Shown: piece by piece, positions 13,798-22,476 of the stretch
How positions within the stretch are numbered: the first letter of the stretch is position 1
How the letters are laid out: the number at the start of each line of letters is the position of its first letter
NCBI GenBank assembly: GCA_026391555.1
Contig: JAPLEB010000102.1
Coordinates: forward strand, 1-35,350
Direction of reading: 5' to 3'
Length of the DNA: 35,350 bases
Origin: Bacteroidia bacterium
GTDB taxonomy: Bacteria > Bacteroidota > Bacteroidia > Bacteroidales > VadinHA17
The notes under the pieces: model-generated
Seen by the model: only the letters and a program-made list of their open reading frames with translations
Told to the model about the DNA's origin: nothing
Database searches by the model: none
Program-made: the position numbers and the translations under genes

Positions 13798-14115
13798 TCA
13801 TTTCGAACCATTTTCCTCAGTTAAAGAATACGGAAAATCAGCCTGATTTATACCTCTTTTCATATTCGGAACAGGCGACATCTTATAGTTCACAACACCG
13901 CCATTTTGTAAAAGGCTATGCGAAAAATAGTTTTTGGTATAAACAGAACCATTCACGCCTGCTTCTTTCACAAAAACATTTTCGGCACTATTCTGATCAG
14001 CTTTTAGTTCCAGTGTTTTGCCGTTGTCGAACCGAACCTTTTCGTAGGCTTTATAGTCGAATACCGGTGGCATATTAAATACCGAGTCAAGCATTTGGAC
14101 AAAGATTTTTTTCAA
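13798..14115 (-). pseudogene. GH92 C-terminal remnant
   Basis: This 105-codon frame has no ATG start: the first codon is TTG at 14115-14113 and an in-frame TAA precedes it directly. From about residue 15 it is the last ~90 residues of a classical GH92 alpha-mannosidase. The visible landmarks are PVFDYKAYEKVRFDNGKTL (17-35), followed by ENVFVKEAGVNGSVYTKNYF (45-64), LLQNGGVVNYKM, then PNMKRGINQADFPYSL near the end, matching the usual GKTFTI..N.Y.....LNG......YL.H..I..GG.L.F.MG..PN..RG....PYS pattern. The catalytic barrel is absent. The first residues (KKIFVQ) look like the beginning of a signal peptide, so the piece may be a start fused to a tail by deletion. It is not a fragment of the intact GH92 at 22504-24843, whose tail ends differently (PNKKWGDTK). 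It begins 6 bp after the GH27 stop. Confidence 0.8.
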
Positions 14116-14121
14116 TTAAAT

Positions 14122-16134
14122 TTACGGAAATAACCTTAACATAACTACCGCATGATGACGGATTTCTGTCGTGAATTCCCCTGTGAACTCTCCTAAATCT
14201 TTTTGTCGCCAGAGATCACGGAGTTTCCATTTACCTTTCAGTCCAACTTTGGCAAAATCGAATACAAACTGTTTTGTCTGCTCATCTCCCCAACGAAAGT
14301 AAGATTGCGGCGTTTTGCCAAAATCATCCGTATTGAAAAGTCCGACTGCAAGAGAGCCGTCTTCCATTGGTTTTGCCCAGATATGAACTCCATTTTCGTC
14401 AGCAACAAGCCTTGCAGGTTTTCCCAATGGATCCTGATTAACTTCAATGACTTCGTCGTTGGTAAGCAGGTTCAGTGTAAAATCATCCAACTGCTCAATG
14501 GGGCAACCGATCAGTAACGGGGCTGCCAGCAGGCTGAAGATGCTGACGTGGCTGTACTGCTCGTCGGGGGTGAGCCTGGAAGGGTGTAACTCCGTAGGCC
14601 CCATGCTTACATTTCCAAGAATCATCATATCCGGATCGTTCCAATGTCCAGGACCTGCGAATTCTGCCCATTTATCGATGGTAAAAGCCAGTGAATAGAG
14701 ACTGGTCCAACTGTCCCTGATATCTGGTCCTGTGCGCCATGCATTGGTTAGCCGGGCCAAGTCAGCGGCCTTTTCAATCGGAGCATTGTTTGAGATACTA
14801 AAAACCACGTCCCTACCTGACTTTTTCAGGGCAGCCGACATGCGTTCCGTTGAGGTTACATCTATCCTCCAGTCGTATTTCAGGTAGTCAAAACCCCATT
14901 CTGCCATCTGCAGGGCATCATTTGTTTCAAACCGGTATTTCCCGATTGGACCAGAAGAACGCCTGTTTGTCTTGATGGGTTCATGTTTTTCCCCGCCTTT
15001 TTCAAAATCGGAGGAAGCGCCGACATAACCGGCATAACTCCAGACGTAGGGGGTAGAATAGATTCCTGCTTTTAACCCGAGGGAATGGATATAATCAACC
15101 ATCCCTTTAATATCAGGAAACTTTTCATTGGGTTGCAGCGCATTTAGTTTTCCACCTCTTCTCCCCTGCCATGCATCATCAATGTTGATGTAGCTCCACC
15201 CGTGATCGCTCAAACCCTTGTTCACCATCGCTTTTGCCGTGGAAATCACTTTCTCCCTGTCAATTTTTTCGGCCCATGAATTCCATCCGTTCCAGCCAAT
15301 GGGAGGCGTCAGAGATATGGTATCTCCAATACAAATTTTCAGTTGCCTTGTTGATTCTCCCAATTCATTTTTTGCTTTGAGTGTAGTGAAGTAGATCCCG
15401 CATTTGTTTACTTTTCCTGTGATGATACCAGTCCGGGAGTCTAAGATAAGTCCGGCTGGCAGATTCTCAGCAGAAAACTGCATCGGGCGTTTCCCGGTAG
15501 TTGAAATGGAATATAAAAATGGATTTCCGGGTGTGGCACCAAAAATTTTGGCAGAATTTATTTTTGGCGTTTCCGGAGGAACGGGAGTAAGTATCTGTTT
15601 TTCATCTGAATTAGGAATCAATTTTGGAAGACTGTCAGGGATCATCTCAAACCTGGCGTTTGCCCAATTACAGTAAGTCATCTTGTTCTTCAACCCTCCG
15701 ATGTCGTCGGTAACCAGAAGACCCAGCCGTTGAATACCCTTCAGGTTCAGGTCAATCTTTTTTGCAGGATCGCCAACCCTCATTTCACCACTTTCGAACA
15801 GAACTTTTTTATCGCCCACCACATAGAACCTGATTGGGATATCTTTGTTCGCTTTATCATCCGCACCAACCTCTGCCATGAACCGCCTGGCATTTCCGTT
15901 CAGGAAGAAAGGGAACACGGCCGTAGTAATCGAACCAATCCCTCTTTGATAACGAACACCACCAATGCGGATGGTATCCGCCAGATAATTTGCCTTTGCT
16001 TTTACAGGACGGATCCCTTCCGAAAACGATACTATTGCCAGATCATCCACCCAAATAGTGGAAACTTTCTCCGAACACGATCCTAATGCAAAGAAGCAGG
16101 CTAACAGGGTGATCAACTTTGATATGTTTCTCAT
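14122..16134 (-). CDS. GH27 alpha-galactosidase-type lipoprotein with N-terminal NPCBM domain
   Basis: A 670-residue predicted lipoprotein (lipobox ALGSC, Cys20). Residues about 25-165 form an NPCBM-type sugar-binding domain (RYQRGIGSITTAVFPFFLNG, FMAEVGADDKAN, VLFESGEM). Residues 195-270 form a putative-Ig (He_PIG) linker domain (NPFLYSISTTGKRPMQF, GLILDSRTGIITGKV). The GH27 barrel follows from LTPPIGWNGWNSWA (275-288). The nucleophile is D421 in YLKYDW and the acid/base is D471 in RTGPDIRDSW. HWNDPDMMILG (497-507) and TNDEVIEVNQDPLGKPA are further GH27 signatures. GH27 enzymes are retaining alpha-galactosidases or alpha-N-acetylgalactosaminidases, and some act on beta-L-arabinopyranose. The domain order is complete and nothing catalytic is missing. 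A shortened second copy lies 3 bp upstream in transcription. Confidence 0.93.
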   Translation of the reverse strand: MRNISKLITLLACFFALGSCSEKVSTIWVDDLAIVSFSEGIRPVKAKANYLADTIRIGGVRYQRGIGSITTAVFPFFLNGNARRFMAEVGADDKANKDIPIRFYVVGDKKVLFESGEMRVGDPAKKIDLNLKGIQRLGLLVTDDIGGLKNKMTYCNWANARFEMIPDSLPKLIPNSDEKQILTPVPPETPKINSAKIFGATPGNPFLYSISTTGKRPMQFSAENLPAGLILDSRTGIITGKVNKCGIYFTTLKAKNELGESTRQLKICIGDTISLTPPIGWNGWNSWAEKIDREKVISTAKAMVNKGLSDHGWSYINIDDAWQGRRGGKLNALQPNEKFPDIKGMVDYIHSLGLKAGIYSTPYVWSYAGYVGASSDFEKGGEKHEPIKTNRRSSGPIGKYRFETNDALQMAEWGFDYLKYDWRIDVTSTERMSAALKKSGRDVVFSISNNAPIEKAADLARLTNAWRTGPDIRDSWTSLYSLAFTIDKWAEFAGPGHWNDPDMMILGNVSMGPTELHPSRLTPDEQYSHVSIFSLLAAPLLIGCPIEQLDDFTLNLLTNDEVIEVNQDPLGKPARLVADENGVHIWAKPMEDGSLAVGLFNTDDFGKTPQSYFRWGDEQTKQFVFDFAKVGLKGKWKLRDLWRQKDLGEFTGEFTTEIRHHAVVMLRLFP

Positions 16135-16137
16135 AAT

Positions 16138-18009
16138 TTATATTTTTATCATACTTATCAAAACAACTCCATGGTGGTTTATTGTTGTTTCGAATGACCC
16201 GTCAAATTCACCTAAATCTTTTTGTCTCCAGAGATCACGTATTTTCCACTTTCCTTTCAGACCAACTTTGGCAAAATCGAATACAAACTGCTTTGGCTGC
16301 TCACTTCCCCAGCGAAAGTATGATTGCGGTGTTTTGCCAAAGTCATCTGTGTTAAAAAGTCCGACAGCAAAAGAGCCATCTTCCATTGGTTTTGCCCAGA
16401 ACTGAACGCCATTCTGATCCGCGACAAATCTTGCAGGTTTTCCCAGTGGGTCCTGATTCACTTCAATAACTTCGTCGTTGGTAAGCAAGTTCAACGAAAA
16501 ATCATCCAATTGTTCAATGGGACAACCAATAAGCAATGGTGCGGCCAGCAAACTAAATAAACTAAAATGGCTATATTGTTCGTCGGGAGTAAGGCGGGTA
16601 GGATGCAATTCAGTGCCGGTGGTCACATTCCCCAGGATCAGCATGTCGGGATCGTTCCAATGCCCGGGACCGCCGAACGGAGCCCACTTGTCGATGGTAA
16701 ATGCCGAAGTATACAGACTTAACCAGCTATCGCGGATGTCGGGTCCTGTGCGCCATGCATTCGACACTCTGGCCCAGTCTTTTGCGTTCTCAAACGGAGC
16801 TGAATTGGATAAGCTAAACAGAATATCCCTGCCGGATTTTTTCAATGCATCTGACATCCGTTCAGCCGAATTCAGTTCTATGCGCCAATCATATTTCCCG
16901 GCATAACCTGCATAGGTCGAAATCCAGGGGGTCGAGTAAATGCCGAGCTTTAAGCCCATTGCATGGATGTTGTCAATCATTTTCTTAAACTCCGGGAATT
17001 TTTCGTTAGCCTGCAGGGCGTTAAGCTTTCCCCCGCGCTGTCCTTCCCAGGTATCGTCGATGTTGATGTACGTCCAGCCATGATTGCTCAGTCCCATACT
17101 CACCATGGCATTGGCTGAAGCAATTACTTTTTCTCCGTCAATATTCCTTGCCCATGAATTCCAGCCGTTCCAACCGATTGGAGGGGTGAGGGCAATAGTG
17201 TCGCCAATCACAATTTTTAGTGGTTTAACTGACTCTCCAAAGACGTTTTTTGCCTTAAGAGTGGCCAGATAAGTGCCTTTTTTGGTGACTTTCCCTGTAA
17301 TTAAACCTGTTTTTGAGTCTAATACCAGTCCTTTTGGTAAATTCTCAGAAGAGAATTCAACAGGACGGTCTCCGGTTGTTGCTATTGTATAAAGGAATGG
17401 GTTGCCCGGAGTAGCACCAAATATCCTTGCTGAATTGATTTTTGGTGTTTTAGCCGGAGGTGGTGTCAGAATGTATTTTTCTCCATTATTTGGTATGGGC
17501 TGAGGAGCATTTTCATCCAACATTACTAATTTTGCATCTGCCCAATCGGAATAGGTTCTGCCATAGCCCTCATCCTCCAGGCTGACAGTTACCAGAAGTC
17601 CAAGGCGTTGAATCCCTGAAAGGTTAGCGCTTACTTTTTTGGGGGCATCGCCCACTTTCATCGCACCGCTTTCGAAAAGGACTTTTTGATCACCAAGTAC
17701 GTAAAACTGAACGAGCATATTTTTGTTTCCCTTATCGTCGGCACCCACCATTGCTGAAAATTGCTCTGCTTTCCCATTCAGCAGGAAGGAAAGAACACTA
17801 ACCGATTGCACGCCAATCCCTCTTTCGAAATAGTGACCTGCCAGCCGGATAGAATCGCCACCTGCACTTTTCTTTGCTGAAACCGAAGGGATCCCTTCTG
17901 AAAAGGTTTGTATTTTCAGGTCATCCAGCCATATATTGGTGGTTTTTGGGGTGCAGCCCCCGGAAACTATATAAAAAAAGACAATTAATAATCTGATGGC
18001 CTGTTTCAT
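16138..18009 (-). CDS. GH27 alpha-galactosidase paralogue with an internal in-frame deletion, possibly inactive
   Basis: Second NPCBM-Ig-GH27 copy, 623 residues from the ATG at 18009. A longer frame upstream is open, but this ATG forms a TAATG overlap with the preceding stop and opens directly onto a hydrophobic signal ending at Cys19 (VSGGC), so I prefer it. Domains run in the same order as in the neighbour: NPCBM about 25-165, Ig-like 195-270, barrel from LTPPIGWNGWNSWA (274-287). The two proteins align almost gap-free except at 371/372, where YAGYAG joins directly to KYDW. The neighbour has 46 extra residues there, including the helix and strand ALQMAEWGFDYL that lead into the nucleophile. 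The nucleophile (D374) and RTGPDIRDSW survive, but a core element of the barrel is gone. It may be inactive, misfolded, retained for binding, or an assembly error. Confidence 0.87.
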   Translation of the reverse strand: MKQAIRLLIVFFYIVSGGCTPKTTNIWLDDLKIQTFSEGIPSVSAKKSAGGDSIRLAGHYFERGIGVQSVSVLSFLLNGKAEQFSAMVGADDKGNKNMLVQFYVLGDQKVLFESGAMKVGDAPKKVSANLSGIQRLGLLVTVSLEDEGYGRTYSDWADAKLVMLDENAPQPIPNNGEKYILTPPPAKTPKINSARIFGATPGNPFLYTIATTGDRPVEFSSENLPKGLVLDSKTGLITGKVTKKGTYLATLKAKNVFGESVKPLKIVIGDTIALTPPIGWNGWNSWARNIDGEKVIASANAMVSMGLSNHGWTYINIDDTWEGQRGGKLNALQANEKFPEFKKMIDNIHAMGLKLGIYSTPWISTYAGYAGKYDWRIELNSAERMSDALKKSGRDILFSLSNSAPFENAKDWARVSNAWRTGPDIRDSWLSLYTSAFTIDKWAPFGGPGHWNDPDMLILGNVTTGTELHPTRLTPDEQYSHFSLFSLLAAPLLIGCPIEQLDDFSLNLLTNDEVIEVNQDPLGKPARFVADQNGVQFWAKPMEDGSFAVGLFNTDDFGKTPQSYFRWGSEQPKQFVFDFAKVGLKGKWKIRDLWRQKDLGEFDGSFETTINHHGVVLISMIKI

Positions 18010-19019
18010 TATGGTAATTTTTGGTAGTTTAAAATATCCGGAAAGTGTACACAAACCACTGGATGCATTGTATAAAGACGGTACGCATCTCCATCATAAA
18101 CCAAAACAGGACTGGATTTATTTTCGCGTAAAATGGGATTCTTTGAATATTTGACCCAATGGATCAGGTCATCTGATTTCGCCACACAAGAACTCCACTC
18201 GTGCCAGTCTTTATATGCTGAAGCATGATAATAAGCATAATAACTACCTTTGTATTTAATGATCTGGTCAACGGCAACTGCATATTTATCGTACAATTCA
18301 GGCCCCATCTTAATGACCGGCTCATCCTGCAAATTTGTCCAGACTTTTAAATCAGTGGAGACTGCCAGCCAGATTCCAAGGTCATCCCGTTCATAAAAGA
18401 GATACCACTTATCATTTTCAAGCCATATTGAAGGGGTACCAAAAGGTCCTTTAGACAGTGGCTGGCCATTACTATACCTTATATCCAACGGACCGTTCTC
18501 TTTCCAATGGATACGGTCAGCGGAGGTGAGCTGGTGGGCAATGTCGTCCTTCCCTTCAGCAAACATATAGTAGGTACCTTTCGACTTTATAACGCACATG
18601 TCTTCAACCCATCCGGCATCATAGATTGGATTATTTATATACCTTGTCCATGTGATTCCATCCTCAGAAGTTGCATAACCAAGATGACTTTCAGTCGCCT
18701 TTCCACTCTGCTTATTATAACCGGTATACCACAAGTGATACATTCCATCTTCTTTCAGAATATAACCTCTTTCCCTGATCATCTGATCCCATGAATTGGT
18801 ACCTGTGCCTGTAAATACCGGATTCTTTTCATAAGAGGTGAAATTTACCAATTCATCAGGAAATTTTGAATTACTTTTCTCCTTTGCCATAGAGGCTATG
18901 TTATCAGGACCGGCTTTAACCTGAGAAAAGACTATTCCGGTCAGGAACATAAGCATAATTGCTTTAATGTTCACTTTACGGTGAGTCAAATACTTTTCGA
19001 AAACTGTATTTATTTTCAT
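18009..19019 (-). CDS. Five-bladed beta-propeller glycosidase (GH43/GH32/GH117/GH130-like)
   Basis: A 336-residue exported protein; the signal peptide lies around residues 17-36 (AIMLMFLTGIVFSQVKA), so the start could also be Met22. Propeller blades are recognisable as repeated strand-turn units that pair a 'W/Y-hLaySeDlihW' element with a 'G.yYmfY' element: GYILKEDGMYHLWYTG (85-100), LGYATSEDGITWTRY (113-127), WVEDMCVIKSKGTYYMFAEG (137-156), TPSIWLENDKWYLFYERDD (195-213), VDQIIKYKGSYYAYYHAS (250-267) and VAKSDDLIHWVKY (279-291). Glu139/Asp140 and the Glu/Asp of YERDD are candidate catalytic acids. The exact family cannot be set by eye; exo-acting arabinosidase, galactosidase or anhydro-sugar hydrolase activities are all possible. 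The stop shares a base with the GH27 start (TAATG), so the two are probably translated together. Confidence 0.7.
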   Translation of the reverse strand: MKINTVFEKYLTHRKVNIKAIMLMFLTGIVFSQVKAGPDNIASMAKEKSNSKFPDELVNFTSYEKNPVFTGTGTNSWDQMIRERGYILKEDGMYHLWYTGYNKQSGKATESHLGYATSEDGITWTRYINNPIYDAGWVEDMCVIKSKGTYYMFAEGKDDIAHQLTSADRIHWKENGPLDIRYSNGQPLSKGPFGTPSIWLENDKWYLFYERDDLGIWLAVSTDLKVWTNLQDEPVIKMGPELYDKYAVAVDQIIKYKGSYYAYYHASAYKDWHEWSSCVAKSDDLIHWVKYSKNPILRENKSSPVLVYDGDAYRLYTMHPVVCVHFPDILNYQKLP

Positions 19020-19043
19020 ATACAGCCTGATTTACAAATTAAA

Positions 19044-20423
19044 TTAGCTTTTCCAAAGATCTTCCCCGTATTCCCATCCTTTGCGAACAGGTTCCTTAAG
19101 GTTAACATTAAATTCAGGATGATTGGTAACTTTCATATTTGCAGCATCATACTCTATGCGAGTATTGAATCGCTGAGCTAATACTCCTGTGAGGGACATC
19201 TCCACTAATTTTGTAGCATAATCGAAATTCGAACCCGGCAACGTACTATTTTTGATGGCATCAATCCATTCGCGCTGGGGATTTTCTTCAAGGACTCTTG
19301 GGATAGTTTGTGCCGGGAGATTTTTCTGAAATTCAGCCCATTCTTCACCAGGTAATAAAATTTTAGGATCATTTGGACGTCCGCCTGTCATAAGGCAATG
19401 CTTATCACCAACCATAATCATACCGCTTCCCGGCAACTTTTCAAGATTCCATTCCGGACGAAGTTCGGGTTTCAATCCGCCTTCGTGCCAGCGCATGGTA
19501 ACGGGACTTTTATCTCCACGTTTTGGAAAATCCCATCGAATAATGGCCTGGTCTGAAACAAATCCGGTATCAGGAACGGGTGACTTAAACTCAGTTTCAA
19601 CAACATCAGGCATACCCAAATCCAATGACCAGAAAGGAGCATCGAGCGTGTGGCAACACCAGTCGCCCAATTCACCATTGCCAAAATCGAACCAACTACG
19701 CCATGTTTTTGGGGCATAAATACCATTGTATGGTCGGTATGCTGCTGGTCCCAGCCACACATCCCAATCGAAATATTCAGGAATAGGCTGTTCTTCCGGC
19801 GGAAAACTTTCGGGCTTATCGAAGAACTTTCCTTTACCAAAGGTTGGTCCATCAAACCAGGCTATTACTTCGGTAACATTGCCCAATATTCCGGCTTCAT
19901 ACCATTCTCTTACCAGACGAATACCGTTGGTGGTATGCCCCTGGTTAGCCATTTGAGTAATTACGGAATAGTGTTTGGCAGCCTTCCGGAGGGTTCTTAA
20001 TTGCCAGATATTGTGAGCAAGAGGTTTTTCAACTATTACATGTTTGCCAAGTTCCATTGCAGCCATTGCTGCCGGGAAATGAGTATGGTCAGGAGTACAG
20101 ACCATCACTGCATCAATTTCTTTGTGCATCCGATCAAACATCACCCTGAAATCTTTAAAGAGCCTGGCATTTGGCATCGCTTTAAAACCTTCGGCAGCTC
20201 TGTTGTTATCAACATCGCATAATGCAACAATATTTTCGTTCCATTTTGGATCTTTCTGGTTAATTAGTTTACTCCAGTTCGATTTACCTCGTCCTCCTAC
20301 ACCTATAACTGCAATATTTAATCTGCTCGATGGGGAACAACTTATCAGGTTAGGAATAAAAAATGCACCTGCCGTAAATGCACCTGCAGACTTAAGAAAA
20401 TCTCTTCTTGTTGGTTTCATCAT
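19044..20423 (-). CDS. Tat-exported Gfo/Idh/MocA-family oxidoreductase (GH109-like)
   Basis: A 459-residue NAD(P)-dependent oxidoreductase. The N-terminus TRRDFLKSAGAFTAGAFF (5-22) is a twin-arginine signal, so the protein is exported folded with its cofactor, possibly as a lipoprotein (LISCS). The Rossmann domain starts NIAVIGVGGRGKSNW and includes CTPDHTHFPAAMAAMELGKH and the family hallmark VEKPLAHN. NQGHTTNGIRLVREW and HEGGLKPELRPEW are typical of the large Bacteroidota clade of these proteins. Family members oxidise or epimerise sugars, or act as GH109-type glycosidases through a transient NAD+-mediated oxidation. Its place inside a degradation operon suggests action on a released or chain-end sugar in the periplasm. 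The start is 40-47 bp downstream of a promoter-like octamer. The reaction is not determinable here. Confidence 0.92.
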   Translation of the reverse strand: MMKPTRRDFLKSAGAFTAGAFFIPNLISCSPSSRLNIAVIGVGGRGKSNWSKLINQKDPKWNENIVALCDVDNNRAAEGFKAMPNARLFKDFRVMFDRMHKEIDAVMVCTPDHTHFPAAMAAMELGKHVIVEKPLAHNIWQLRTLRKAAKHYSVITQMANQGHTTNGIRLVREWYEAGILGNVTEVIAWFDGPTFGKGKFFDKPESFPPEEQPIPEYFDWDVWLGPAAYRPYNGIYAPKTWRSWFDFGNGELGDWCCHTLDAPFWSLDLGMPDVVETEFKSPVPDTGFVSDQAIIRWDFPKRGDKSPVTMRWHEGGLKPELRPEWNLEKLPGSGMIMVGDKHCLMTGGRPNDPKILLPGEEWAEFQKNLPAQTIPRVLEENPQREWIDAIKNSTLPGSNFDYATKLVEMSLTGVLAQRFNTRIEYDAANMKVTNHPEFNVNLKEPVRKGWEYGEDLWKS

Positions 20424-20462
20424 TGTTTTATGGTTTTAATGTTTTAATCGATAAATTTAGAA

Positions 20463-20470
20463 CAAAAATA
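20463..20470 (-). promoter_or_regulatory. Candidate Bacteroidota -7 element upstream of the oxidoreductase gene
   Basis: On the minus strand TATTTTTG lies at 20470-20463 and matches the Bacteroidota -7 consensus TAnnTTTG exactly, about 40 bp before the ATG at 20423. A TTTG that could be the -33 box is 31 bp upstream, too far for the usual 19-21 bp. At the correct distance only GTTC is found. The region is AT-rich, so a chance match is possible. If real, it would restart transcription after the eroded segment. Confidence 0.3.
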
Positions 20471-20531
20471 TTTAATTTGAATTTATTGAACCGGAAGGGA
20501 GCAAAACAGATGCTTTCAGAAAAGGAACTTC

Positions 20532-20600
20532 CTATGCCTTCTCGATAGTCGTTACCTGGCATAGAGCAATAATCAGAAAGAGAGATATTTGATTTTTCAT
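20532..20600 (-). pseudogene. Orphan signal peptide: 22-codon remnant of a secreted protein gene
   Basis: An ATG at 20600-20598 begins a 22-codon frame, MKNQISLFLIIALCQ followed by seven more residues, then TAG at 20534-20532. The sequence is a textbook Bacteroidota export signal (Lys/Asn start, hydrophobic core, Gln after the core), but no mature protein follows. The ATG overlaps the stop of the upstream GH3 remnant as ATGA, the same coupling used between intact genes in this operon. The most likely reading is the beginning of a secreted enzyme whose body was deleted or cut by a stop. A translated leader peptide is the alternative. Confidence 0.5.
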
Positions 20601-20869
20601 CCGTACAAAATTATTTTTAATATGTCGGATGGAGCTCTCATGTTGATTTTGTTCATGCAAGCCAACCTTGGAATGCCTGGTGAACTGGCAATCAAAAGGC
20701 TTATTTTTTCCTCAACAGAAAGTTGATACAGCAAATCAATTATGCGCTCATGCTGAGGGGCATTTTCGTTTCGGAATAGAGGTAAACTTTGGCCAAAGCC
20801 CTGATTAACAAAAACTGAAATCAAGCATATTAAAATGCTAAATTTGAGTAAGTTAATTTCTCTTTTCAT
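20597..20869 (-). pseudogene. GH3 remnant: N-terminus fused to a short tail
   Basis: From the ATG at 20869 this frame gives 90 residues (an upstream GTG at 20893 is less likely). The signal peptide ends NQGFGQ. The mature start PLFRNENAPQHERIIDLL, then LSVEEKISLL and PGIPRL, is the unmistakable N-terminus of GH3 beta-glycosidases, which normally run past 700 residues. After IPRL the expected block containing NEALHG is missing. A tail ending APSDILKIILYG then runs to a TGA that overlaps the next ATG. The tail is faintly like GH3 C-termini (SSDI.LK), so an internal in-frame deletion is possible; a random out-of-frame tail is the alternative. The gene cannot encode an active GH3. It sits 23 bp after the GH28 stop. 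Confidence 0.75.
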
Positions 20870-20892: not shown

Positions 20893-22476
20893 CTATTTTA
20901 AGTTCGTTTTAATAACACCCTTTTCCTGACTAACCGGAATCATCAGGTTTTTAGTTGTAATGTCCGACGAATTGTTAAAAAGGACAACAGGCAATTCTTT
21001 AACGGCAGGAATATCTACACCAACCATTTCAATCCCTTTCACATCATCAAAAACGAATGCAGGGCGAAAATCATCCTCAACATAGCTCACTTTTACATTT
21101 TTCATTTTAACTCCTTCAGCATGGCGCACATAAAAGCCCCATGAAGGCAGCTCCCCAAACATCGAAAACTCGGGATAATTGGCTTCGTTTTCAGGAATTG
21201 AGGTAATCTTATTTAGAGGAATATACGCTATTTCTTTGCTGGCCATTCCGCCATAGCTGATTTCCACATTCTCGATAGTCACATCCTGAACGGGGTATCC
21301 CGGAATTCCAACTATGGAAGAAGGGATCAGGTTGTAGGGTAAAAACGGGTGTCCGTAAATGTGAAAATGAGAGGGCCGTTTGGGCATTTTATCCTCCCCC
21401 GGACGAAGATGATCAGGTGGCCCTTCTATTGGATAACCCTGGTCGGGCTTGTAAAGAGGGATCTCTGCTTTAATATTGGCGATGTAAACACCTTTGAGTG
21501 TTCCAACTTTACTCTCCTGATTCCGGTGTCCGCGGCGGATAAAAATGGCATTACCTGTATTCTTTGCCACAACATTTTGAATATCTATGTTTTCCAGCAC
21601 TCCCCCATCAACCGATTCGATAGCAATGGCTGAGCGGTAGGTGTCAAAAACAGTAAGATTGCGTACTTTGATGTTTTTAAAACCTCCGGTTGAAGCTGTA
21701 CCCATTTTAAATCCACTGGCGCTGGAGCGAACAGTGCAACTGTCGATCCATACATTCTCGCAAAGGGAATTAGGATTTTCAGATTTCAGGCAAATACCGT
21801 CATCAGCCGAGTTGATAAAACAATTGGTGATTCTTACATTTTGGCAATCCGTAATATCCAATCCGTCATTGTTCCAGTAAGCAGTGCTTTGAACGGTTAT
21901 CCCATGAATGATAACATTGTTGCACTCGCGGTAATCCTGAACCCAGCCTGAAGCATCTTTTAGTGTGATTCCCGATACATTTATTTCAGAGCATGAATCA
22001 ATTGCAAGAATCATAGCCCTGTGCCCCGGCCTTTTTACCAGCCAGATTGTATCTTCTTTTATTTCGCCACTTCTGAGTTTTTGGAACACATCCAACATAA
22101 GCTCTTGTCCCTGCCCATCAAGAATACCAGTACCACTGATCGATACCTTTGTCTGATTTTTTGCCCTGATAAGTGCCCGGCGGTCATTGCCGTAATCTGA
22201 AAGATCAGGTGATCCCAGAAGACAGGCACCCTGTTCCAAATGCAAATCAACACCCGATTTCATAAATATTGTTCCGGTCATGAAGTTTCCGGGAGGAACA
22301 ATTAGCCTCCCACCACCGGAAGCCGAAATCTCATCGATTGCCTTTTGAATATAAGCAGCATTATTTGTTTTCCCATCTGCTATTGCACCATAGGAGGTAA
22401 TTAGATTTTCATTTTTTGTCTTGCACCCGATCGCGGAACAAAGCAAAAGGATTAAAATTGGCCATCTTGTTTTCAT
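20893..22476 (-). CDS. GH28-like right-handed beta-helix lipoprotein with non-canonical active site
   Basis: A 527-residue predicted lipoprotein (lipobox SAIGC, Cys18). It opens with the pectate-lyase-like entry SYGAIADGKTNNAAYIQKAI (28-47) and GGGRLIVPPGNFMTG (54-68), followed by many beta-helix turns (ISGTGILDG, NNVIIHGITV, NVRITNCFINS, NVWIDSCTVRS, NIKVRNLTVFD). The three catalytic Asp positions of GH28 are present: NNDGLD (D204) and ADDGICLKS (D225, D226). The GHG histidine motif is replaced by SASGFKMG (252-259), and no RIK follows. GH28 covers polygalacturonases, rhamnogalacturonan hydrolases and related exo-enzymes. With the substrate-binding His, Arg and Lys changed, the substrate is probably not plain homogalacturonan. 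The fold is certain; the activity is open. Confidence 0.85.
   Translation of the reverse strand: MKTRWPILILLLCSAIGCKTKNENLITSYGAIADGKTNNAAYIQKAIDEISASGGGRLIVPPGNFMTGTIFMKSGVDLHLEQGACLLGSPDLSDYGNDRRALIRAKNQTKVSISGTGILDGQGQELMLDVFQKLRSGEIKEDTIWLVKRPGHRAMILAIDSCSEINVSGITLKDASGWVQDYRECNNVIIHGITVQSTAYWNNDGLDITDCQNVRITNCFINSADDGICLKSENPNSLCENVWIDSCTVRSSASGFKMGTASTGGFKNIKVRNLTVFDTYRSAIAIESVDGGVLENIDIQNVVAKNTGNAIFIRRGHRNQESKVGTLKGVYIANIKAEIPLYKPDQGYPIEGPPDHLRPGEDKMPKRPSHFHIYGHPFLPYNLIPSSIVGIPGYPVQDVTIENVEISYGGMASKEIAYIPLNKITSIPENEANYPEFSMFGELPSWGFYVRHAEGVKMKNVKVSYVEDDFRPAFVFDDVKGIEMVGVDIPAVKELPVVLFNNSSDITTKNLMIPVSQEKGVIKTNLK

Follow-up and report, generated by a model that had tools for sequence, protein, structure and literature searches.

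Probable clustered gene deletions in a Bacteroidia enzyme operon and a putative mobile element at start codons

Between 13.8 and 20.9 kb on contig JAPLEB010000102.1 of a Bacteroidia bacterium (assembly GCA_026391555.1), several genes of an enzyme operon are reduced to fragments next to intact neighbours, which raises the question of how such a pattern arose. The window, by which we mean the whole stretch of DNA analysed, is the complete contig of 35,350 bases. An earlier note on this DNA had named four eroded units, namely a tail of a GH92 gene (GH, glycoside hydrolase family), a GH27 copy with a gap, an orphan signal peptide and the start of a GH3 gene with a short tail, and had suggested that selection against polar effects in a translationally coupled operon preserved gene ends and stop/start overlaps while the interiors were lost. 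The coordinates and the truncation of all four units hold in the sequence. Our analysis points to another explanation: we consider it probable that the operon suffered a cluster of several independent, recent deletions, one of whose scars includes part of a putative mobile element residing at start codons.

Two alpha-galactosidase-like GH27 genes, GH27a and GH27b, lie in tandem in the window (coordinates of all features are given in Table 1). As the earlier note had it, GH27b carries an in-frame gap, being 46 residues shorter than GH27a and 45 shorter than its ortholog in L035, a locus of an uncultured Bacteroidia bacterium. Both copies are tandem and intact in L035, where the GH27b ortholog is 71% identical and 667 amino acids (aa) long. 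The missing segment covers a helix and most of a strand that precede the motif KYD, which we take to be the site of the GH27 nucleophile. Across 123 alignments over the region in 114 loci (some of which overlap, and which include the window), helix and strand are missing from no GH27 alignment that reaches the segment except that of the window copy; the alignment of locus L064 stops before it. We rejected a GH27 subfamily naturally devoid of the segment, as many GH27 proteins lack about 25 residues of a variable loop yet retain helix and strand.

Outside the gap, GH27b is well preserved. When it was compared with 17 relatives, 118 columns were invariant in the others; six of these lie inside the gap, and only one of the remaining 112 is changed (111 kept). 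The intact GH27a differs at 3 of 121 columns that are invariant in the other 16 relatives, W459L among them. Faster evolution of GH27b was rejected by counts of private changes against nine outgroups, by which window GH27b has fewer changes than the L035 ortholog in seven comparisons and slightly more in two. Since the gap is absent from the aligned relatives and the rest of the gene shows no decay, constraint seems to have acted on GH27b until not long ago; its gap would then be of recent origin or else a product of misassembly. The protein is still recognizable as a family member (Pfam Melibiase_2, E 8.4e-34), with the motifs GWNSW, INIDD, KYDW, RTGPDIRDSW and WNDPDM all present. Its (beta/alpha)8 barrel is incomplete, as the deleted part, mapped on the predicted fold of GH27a, corresponds to helix 403-413 and the start of strand 417-420, which leads into KYD (beta-4). 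Because this helix and most of the strand preceding the nucleophile are gone, GH27b is probably inactive.

The 105-residue GH92 frame (13798-14115), described earlier as a GH92 tail, does contain the GH92 C-terminus but is not a plain tail. Its Pfam match is solely to profile positions 409-463 of 464, leaving no complete GH92 catalytic domain. Of 22 homologous loci, 20 show a match for residues 2-24 about 99 codons upstream of where residues 26-105 match, with E <= 3e-4 in 17. As these N-terminal residues match elsewhere in GH92 proteins, the remnant appears to be a single gene that has lost its 5' part and about 99 internal codons, the two surviving pieces being joined in frame. It too has changed little: where at least 85% of homologs agree (19 columns), the remnant matches them at 16 and departs at three, each time with a similar residue. 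A counterpart, 53% identical, is found in a 796-aa frame of another genome (G249), and among the matches listed most GH92 relatives lie in frames of at least 700 aa, with three in frames of 96, 109 and 228 aa.

As the earlier note had it, the 90-residue frame at 20597-20869 opens with the start of a GH3 gene, of which it holds about 69 codons. There is no Pfam match at E <= 0.01 for this remnant, and so no complete catalytic domain. The closest GH3 proteins among nine genomes are an 858-aa frame at 53% identity (contig C154 of genome G505, to which L035 belongs) and an 871-aa frame at 51% (genome G506, to which L064 belongs); the GH3 matches in these genomes lie in frames of 747-1031 aa. On the L035 contig, the intact GH3 gene is directly followed by an esterase gene. 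Relatives hold counterparts of the eroded genes: a 667-aa GH27b, an 858-aa GH3 frame followed by the esterase, and a 796-aa GH92 frame.

Downstream of the GH3 remnant, the 22-residue sequence formerly regarded as an orphan is a signal peptide, but it does not stand alone. It is followed by TAG and then, in the same frame, by the 11 residues FLKASVLLPSG. Aligned with the L035 esterase, this piece gives a score of 46, reached in 0 of 3000 shuffles, and with the L064 esterase its score was reached in 0 of 1000. Because this same-frame stretch matches both esterases, we read the signal peptide as the start of a gutted esterase gene. Relocation of an intact esterase within the same genome was rejected, a 200-residue esterase query having no match there at E <= 1e-5. 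GH3 and GH92 queries did find matches in this genome, in other, long frames, most of them on other contigs.

About 23 codons at the end of the GH3 frame have another origin. They match other places in the same genome, and at the DNA level they belong to an interspersed element of about 100 nucleotides (nt), of which the window holds the 3' two-thirds (covariance-model hit at 20595-20704, 53.9 bits, E 6.9e-7). From this copy the GH3 frame takes its final codons and its stop, and the ATGA at 20600 its ATG, so that the supposed tail is an interspersed repeat. Nor is the ATGA a kept gene end or operon relic: it is borne by the element, which ends on a start codon in most copies examined.

We infer that the junctions are real deletions rather than assembly errors, and that events took the following order. 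An element would first have inserted at the start codon of the esterase gene. One deletion would then have taken away both the 5' third of the element and all of GH3 beyond about codon 69; this is most simply how the window copy lost its 5' part. The esterase would have been gutted by one or more further deletions, two deletions would have taken the 5' part and about 99 internal codons of GH92, and one the 46 codons of GH27b. That the cluster lies in an otherwise intact operon agrees with the neighbours. Of the 16 other proteins of the contig, 15 have a relative at E <= 1e-30 in 80 related loci, and the longest stretch absent from any of these window proteins is 20 residues (best three matches each, several of partial coverage). 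The exception, a GH43-like protein, has no relative in the 80 loci and is 56-65% identical to frames of 309-326 aa in three other genomes (393 searched).

Could selection on translational coupling have shaped the remnants instead? All three junctions that can be tested for frame are in frame (GH27b, GH92 and the esterase, the last with a stop between its pieces), for which the chance is 1 in 27 without selection, and a TAATG overlap is present at the GH27b start. We take the in-frame junctions as suggestive only. The TAATG at 18009, cited earlier as kept despite interior loss, lies outside the GH27b deletion, where its survival is expected, and the ATGA at 20600 is the end of an element seen at many unrelated genes; therefore neither supports selection on coupling. 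Moreover, the GH92 start is lost, a TAG separates the esterase pieces, and the remnants have decayed too little for maintenance to be read from them, being either too recent or too doubtful. We consider it quite improbable that selection retained gene ends, frames and stop/start overlaps while interiors went, sparing a coupled operon polar effects. Still less credence is due to the idea that the short proteins encoded by the remnants function as such, or that GH27b remains an active enzyme whose barrel has been remodelled. The frames are open in GH27b, GH92 and GH3, and the GH27b motifs are present, but no GH27 protein aligned across the segment has the short form, the lost part is a helix and strand of the barrel in the predicted intact fold, and the long frames of the GH3 matches and of most listed GH92 matches speak against it.

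Assembly artefacts at some or all junctions, for instance a collapse between strains or between the tandem GH27 copies, are unlikely, though of the rivals to deletion this is the one to which we give most weight. The genome is metagenome-derived, in 164 contigs with an estimated contamination of 4.08%; GH27b shows no decay outside its gap; and GH27a and GH27b are 82% identical downstream of it. Against this, at least five separate junctions would all need to be wrong, and the missing esterase is not found elsewhere in the genome.

Several points nonetheless weigh against a history of recent deletions, and the in-frame junctions are one of them. The contig is one of 164, and any junction could be an artefact of assembly or strain mixture. 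The GH3-esterase neighbourhood is intact in one relative only (L035), GH3 being followed by GH92 in the L064 genome, and the esterase piece is short (11 residues). For GH27b, the evidence from the fold for loss of function is weak. Both GH27 models were built from 18-sequence alignments, and the low confidence at the GH27b junction (block means 34-44) is not specific, as the variable loop of intact GH27a is equally low (34-45). Off that loop, averaging the barrel confidence in blocks of 10 residues gives means of about 68-72 for GH27b versus 81-83 for GH27a (calculated by hand), so that the barrel is only moderately different.

The element at the GH3 scar recurs across the family, at many unrelated genes. 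A 100-base query found matches at E <= 0.001 in 29 of 114 genomes of the family, at most seven candidates being scored per genome. The full element begins with ATGAA[C/A]CC and ends with GGATGAAA or a covarying variant, and in most cases the gene downstream starts on its last ATG. We aligned 42 of 50 extracted copies, leaving out the window copy (L130) and those of L134, L136, L137, L217, L218, L190 and L215; L191, L195, L196 and four duplicate loci had been dropped earlier. Nearly all rows have ATGAA[AC]CC at the left end and ATGAAA at the right. The terminal start position opens at least 60 codons in 38 of the 42 copies, compared with 711 of 3461 ATGs (20.5%) in the same loci. Sampling 796 kb of two genomes with the covariance model gave 13 copies at E <= 0.1, a single one being weak at E 0.012. 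Frames of at least 375 codons begin at 12 of these, including all seven that had yet to be recognised when the stretches were chosen; the stretches were partly picked for contigs with known copies and give no fair density. Judged by eye, the invaded genes often look like those of secreted proteins. No hit at E <= 1 was obtained in 54 loci of other lineages (1.0 Mb).

Comparison with uninvaded genes indicates where the element would insert. Twelve element-bearing gene starts were joined into one query, and it matched 27 gene starts listed from other genomes of the genus, all of them free of element hits at E <= 1; these empty genes start with ATGAAA in 24 cases and ATGAAG in three. For three of the four genes concerned, upstream flanks align in some pairs (G068 with G069 and G045; G086 with G076; the window's own genome with G083, G043 and G059), and therefore the insertion can be placed at the start codon; for the fourth (G086 with G063) no upstream flank aligned. 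The left ATGAA thus appears to be the old start and the right ATGAA the element's own. We propose that the element is a small, structured mobile DNA that would insert in or just after the start-codon ATGAA, its terminal ATGAA leaving the invaded gene with a start. A similar gene start bears the element both in the window's genome (L285:11460-11528) and in G086 (L262:6827-6925), with hairpins of different classes (CATCAT against CATCCG); the class difference could reflect two separate insertions at one start codon.

The full element appears to form two hairpins. The first occurs as AACCCACATG/CATGTGGGTT, as AACCTCCATG/CATGGAGGTT and in a form with CGAG on both arms. In the second, around the ATG, CATCCG pairs with CGGATG, and the covarying variants are CATCTG/CAGATG, CATCAT/ATGATG and CATAAT/ATTATG; pairing holds in 96.4% of the cells of this hairpin, and four of its six pairs show changes on both sides. 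Such two-sided changes affect 38 cells of the whole structure, versus 9.0 in shuffles, and three of five covariation measures were reached by 0 of 500 shuffles. Five copies were folded, and in all the energy lies below the shuffle mean, with z between -2.0 and -5.0 for RNA and between -1.5 and -4.3 for DNA. The element also contains TAnnTTTG, which we take to resemble the Bacteroidetes -7 promoter box, and a central CCAT that by eye can pair with the left or the right ATG. In five copies of the window's own genome (L217, L136, L218, L137 and L134), other palindromes (CCCGATGCATCGGG, TCCCGCCTTTGCGGGA) interrupt the first hairpin or stand in place of part of it, as if repeats were nested.

These properties could also suit a vertically inherited regulatory RNA leader rather than mobile DNA. 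The covarying hairpin around the start codon, the stable RNA folds of all five copies and the presence of the element at some similar genes in two genomes (L194/L197 and L184/L213) would fit such a leader, which we nevertheless find unlikely: all 27 matching gene starts examined in other genomes are devoid of it, and in the window's genome two identical 104-nt copies precede unrelated genes with different upstream flanks. Identity with a described RNA of Rfam was rejected. The window has no Rfam match at the gathering score, and three sub-gathering matches in seven element loci do not lie on the element.

We give roughly even chances to a mobile family specialised in start codons, which would insert after ATGAA, provide a replacement ATGAA within its 3' hairpin, be near-neutral for coding and bring a shared structured leader. 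As CCAT can pair with either ATG, it is perhaps a single guide word for both ends in single-strand transposition. A number of observations count against this proposal. Four of the 42 copies lack 60 open codons (one of these is cut by a contig end), and in three the terminal ATG is replaced by GTG, AGG or ATA. The 27 empty loci belong to 4 of the 12 query genes and are not independent events, their orthology resting on best matches and not on a tree. Two measures were matched in shuffles, the number of pairs with both-side changes in 63 of 500 and that of further pair types in 436, and kinship of copies can also produce the measures reached by none. RNAalifold predicts the second helix alone on the 42 copies, and standard pairs make up 75.5% of helix 1, most copies having tandem G-A mismatches because CGAG occurs on both arms. 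No transposase was detected near the element in a motif scan confined to 288 loci and made without a positive control. A longer, autonomous version of the element was rejected, as a motif scan for its ends in about 0.8 Mb of the sampled stretches yielded no convincing one.

Several known systems bear comparison. The subclass 2.6 REP-type (repetitive extragenic palindromic) transposases of Bacteroidetes lie between atypical secondary structures that recur at other places in the genome (PMC6006769). Like elements associated with REP-associated tyrosine transposases, ours is a small hairpin DNA dispersed in Bacteroidetes genomes (PMC6006769), but the motif scan found no such transposase gene beside its copies. 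A subclass 2.6 enzyme is the best candidate for the mobilising activity. Canonical REP elements have a GTAG or CGTC word at one end (PMC3733652), whereas nearly all of our 42 rows begin with ATGAA[AC]CC and end with ATGAAA. The element shares with IS200/IS605 the hairpins at both ends, a left flanking target word and a matching right word (PMC6006769), and differs in measuring only about 100 nt, in lacking a transposase and in its right word, a start codon that forms part of a hairpin arm. Protein genes likewise tolerate the Rickettsia palindromic elements, which are mobile and of small size, but these lie within the gene as in-frame fusions (PMC2229807), while ours sits at the start codon and restores the start. 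As for a miniature inverted-repeat transposable element, there are two hairpins and by eye no terminal inverted repeat; the ATGAA found at either end looks like a duplication, yet it is nearly invariant. The term "start codon" is absent from the available texts of PMC6006769, PMC2229807, PMC3733652 and PMC9769881, and "ATG" from that of PMC6006769; insertion at start codons by such an element is not described in the titles and abstract openings of the literature searched.

The deletions themselves are ordinary. In bacterial carbohydrate-degradation clusters, ordinary deletion decay leaves truncated enzyme remnants between intact genes. The present locus is alike in this respect and differs in that several adjacent genes are hit and the surviving pieces show little decay. 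If the proposal for the element is true, mobile DNA that targets and regenerates start codons would be a new way into a compact genome without breaking genes, and could put many genes at the same time under one shared translational leader. The element can also mislead annotation, as with the apparent GH3 tail and coupled start, both of which derive from its copy.

The minus strand carries every long gene of the contig. A Pfam scan identified two GH106-like and two GH95 proteins, a glucuronyl-esterase-like protein, the tandem GH27 pair, a GH43/32/130-like protein, a GFO/IDH/MocA oxidoreductase, GH28, GH92, three sulfatases and a DUF4962/heparinase-like protein, besides two proteins without Pfam match and the GH92 and GH3 remnants. 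No SusC/SusD pair, by which a polysaccharide utilization locus is recognized, occurs among the 19 proteins scanned; the contig is perhaps cut short.

Table 1. Features of the eroded region and its intact neighbours
Feature	Position	Strand	Basis
GH92 remnant piece 2, C-terminal 80 residues	13801..14040	-	Pfam GH92 409-463/464; 53% to 796-aa GH92 frame
GH92 remnant piece 1, internal, fused in frame to piece 2	14044..14112	-	Match upstream of piece 2 in homologs; pairwise alignment with L140
GH27a, intact alpha-galactosidase-like gene	14122..16134	-	Pfam; 83% to L035 ortholog, no gaps; predicted fold
GH27b, tandem copy with in-frame 46-residue deletion	16138..18009	-	Junction 16896/16897
GH43/GH32/GH130-like gene, stop overlapping GH27b start (TAATG)	18009..19019	-	Weak Pfam match
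GFO/IDH/MocA oxidoreductase, twin-arginine (TAT) signal, no large gap	19044..20423	-	Pfam; 37% to L069 over residues 2-451, longest gap 10
11-residue esterase piece FLKASVLLPSG	20490..20522	-	Shuffle tests against L035 and L064 esterases
Putative signal peptide of lost esterase, start at ATG of start-codon element	20532..20600	-	GH3-esterase gene order in L035/G505
3' two-thirds of ~100-nt start-codon element	20595..20661	-	97% over positions 34-100 of 100-nt query
First ~69 codons of GH3 gene, remainder missing	20663..20869	-	53% / 51% to GH3 frames
Intact GH28 gene, upstream of GH3 remnant	20893..22476	-	Pfam; 68% to L039 and L041, longest gap 2

Two genes of the related locus L035 (2136-3734 and 11988-14153) have N-terminal extensions before their likely true starts (MPDFLCDTLRNSLRTLR... 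and MKTKKVHAKPAKKDAK...), which by eye look like the translation of another interspersed repeat.

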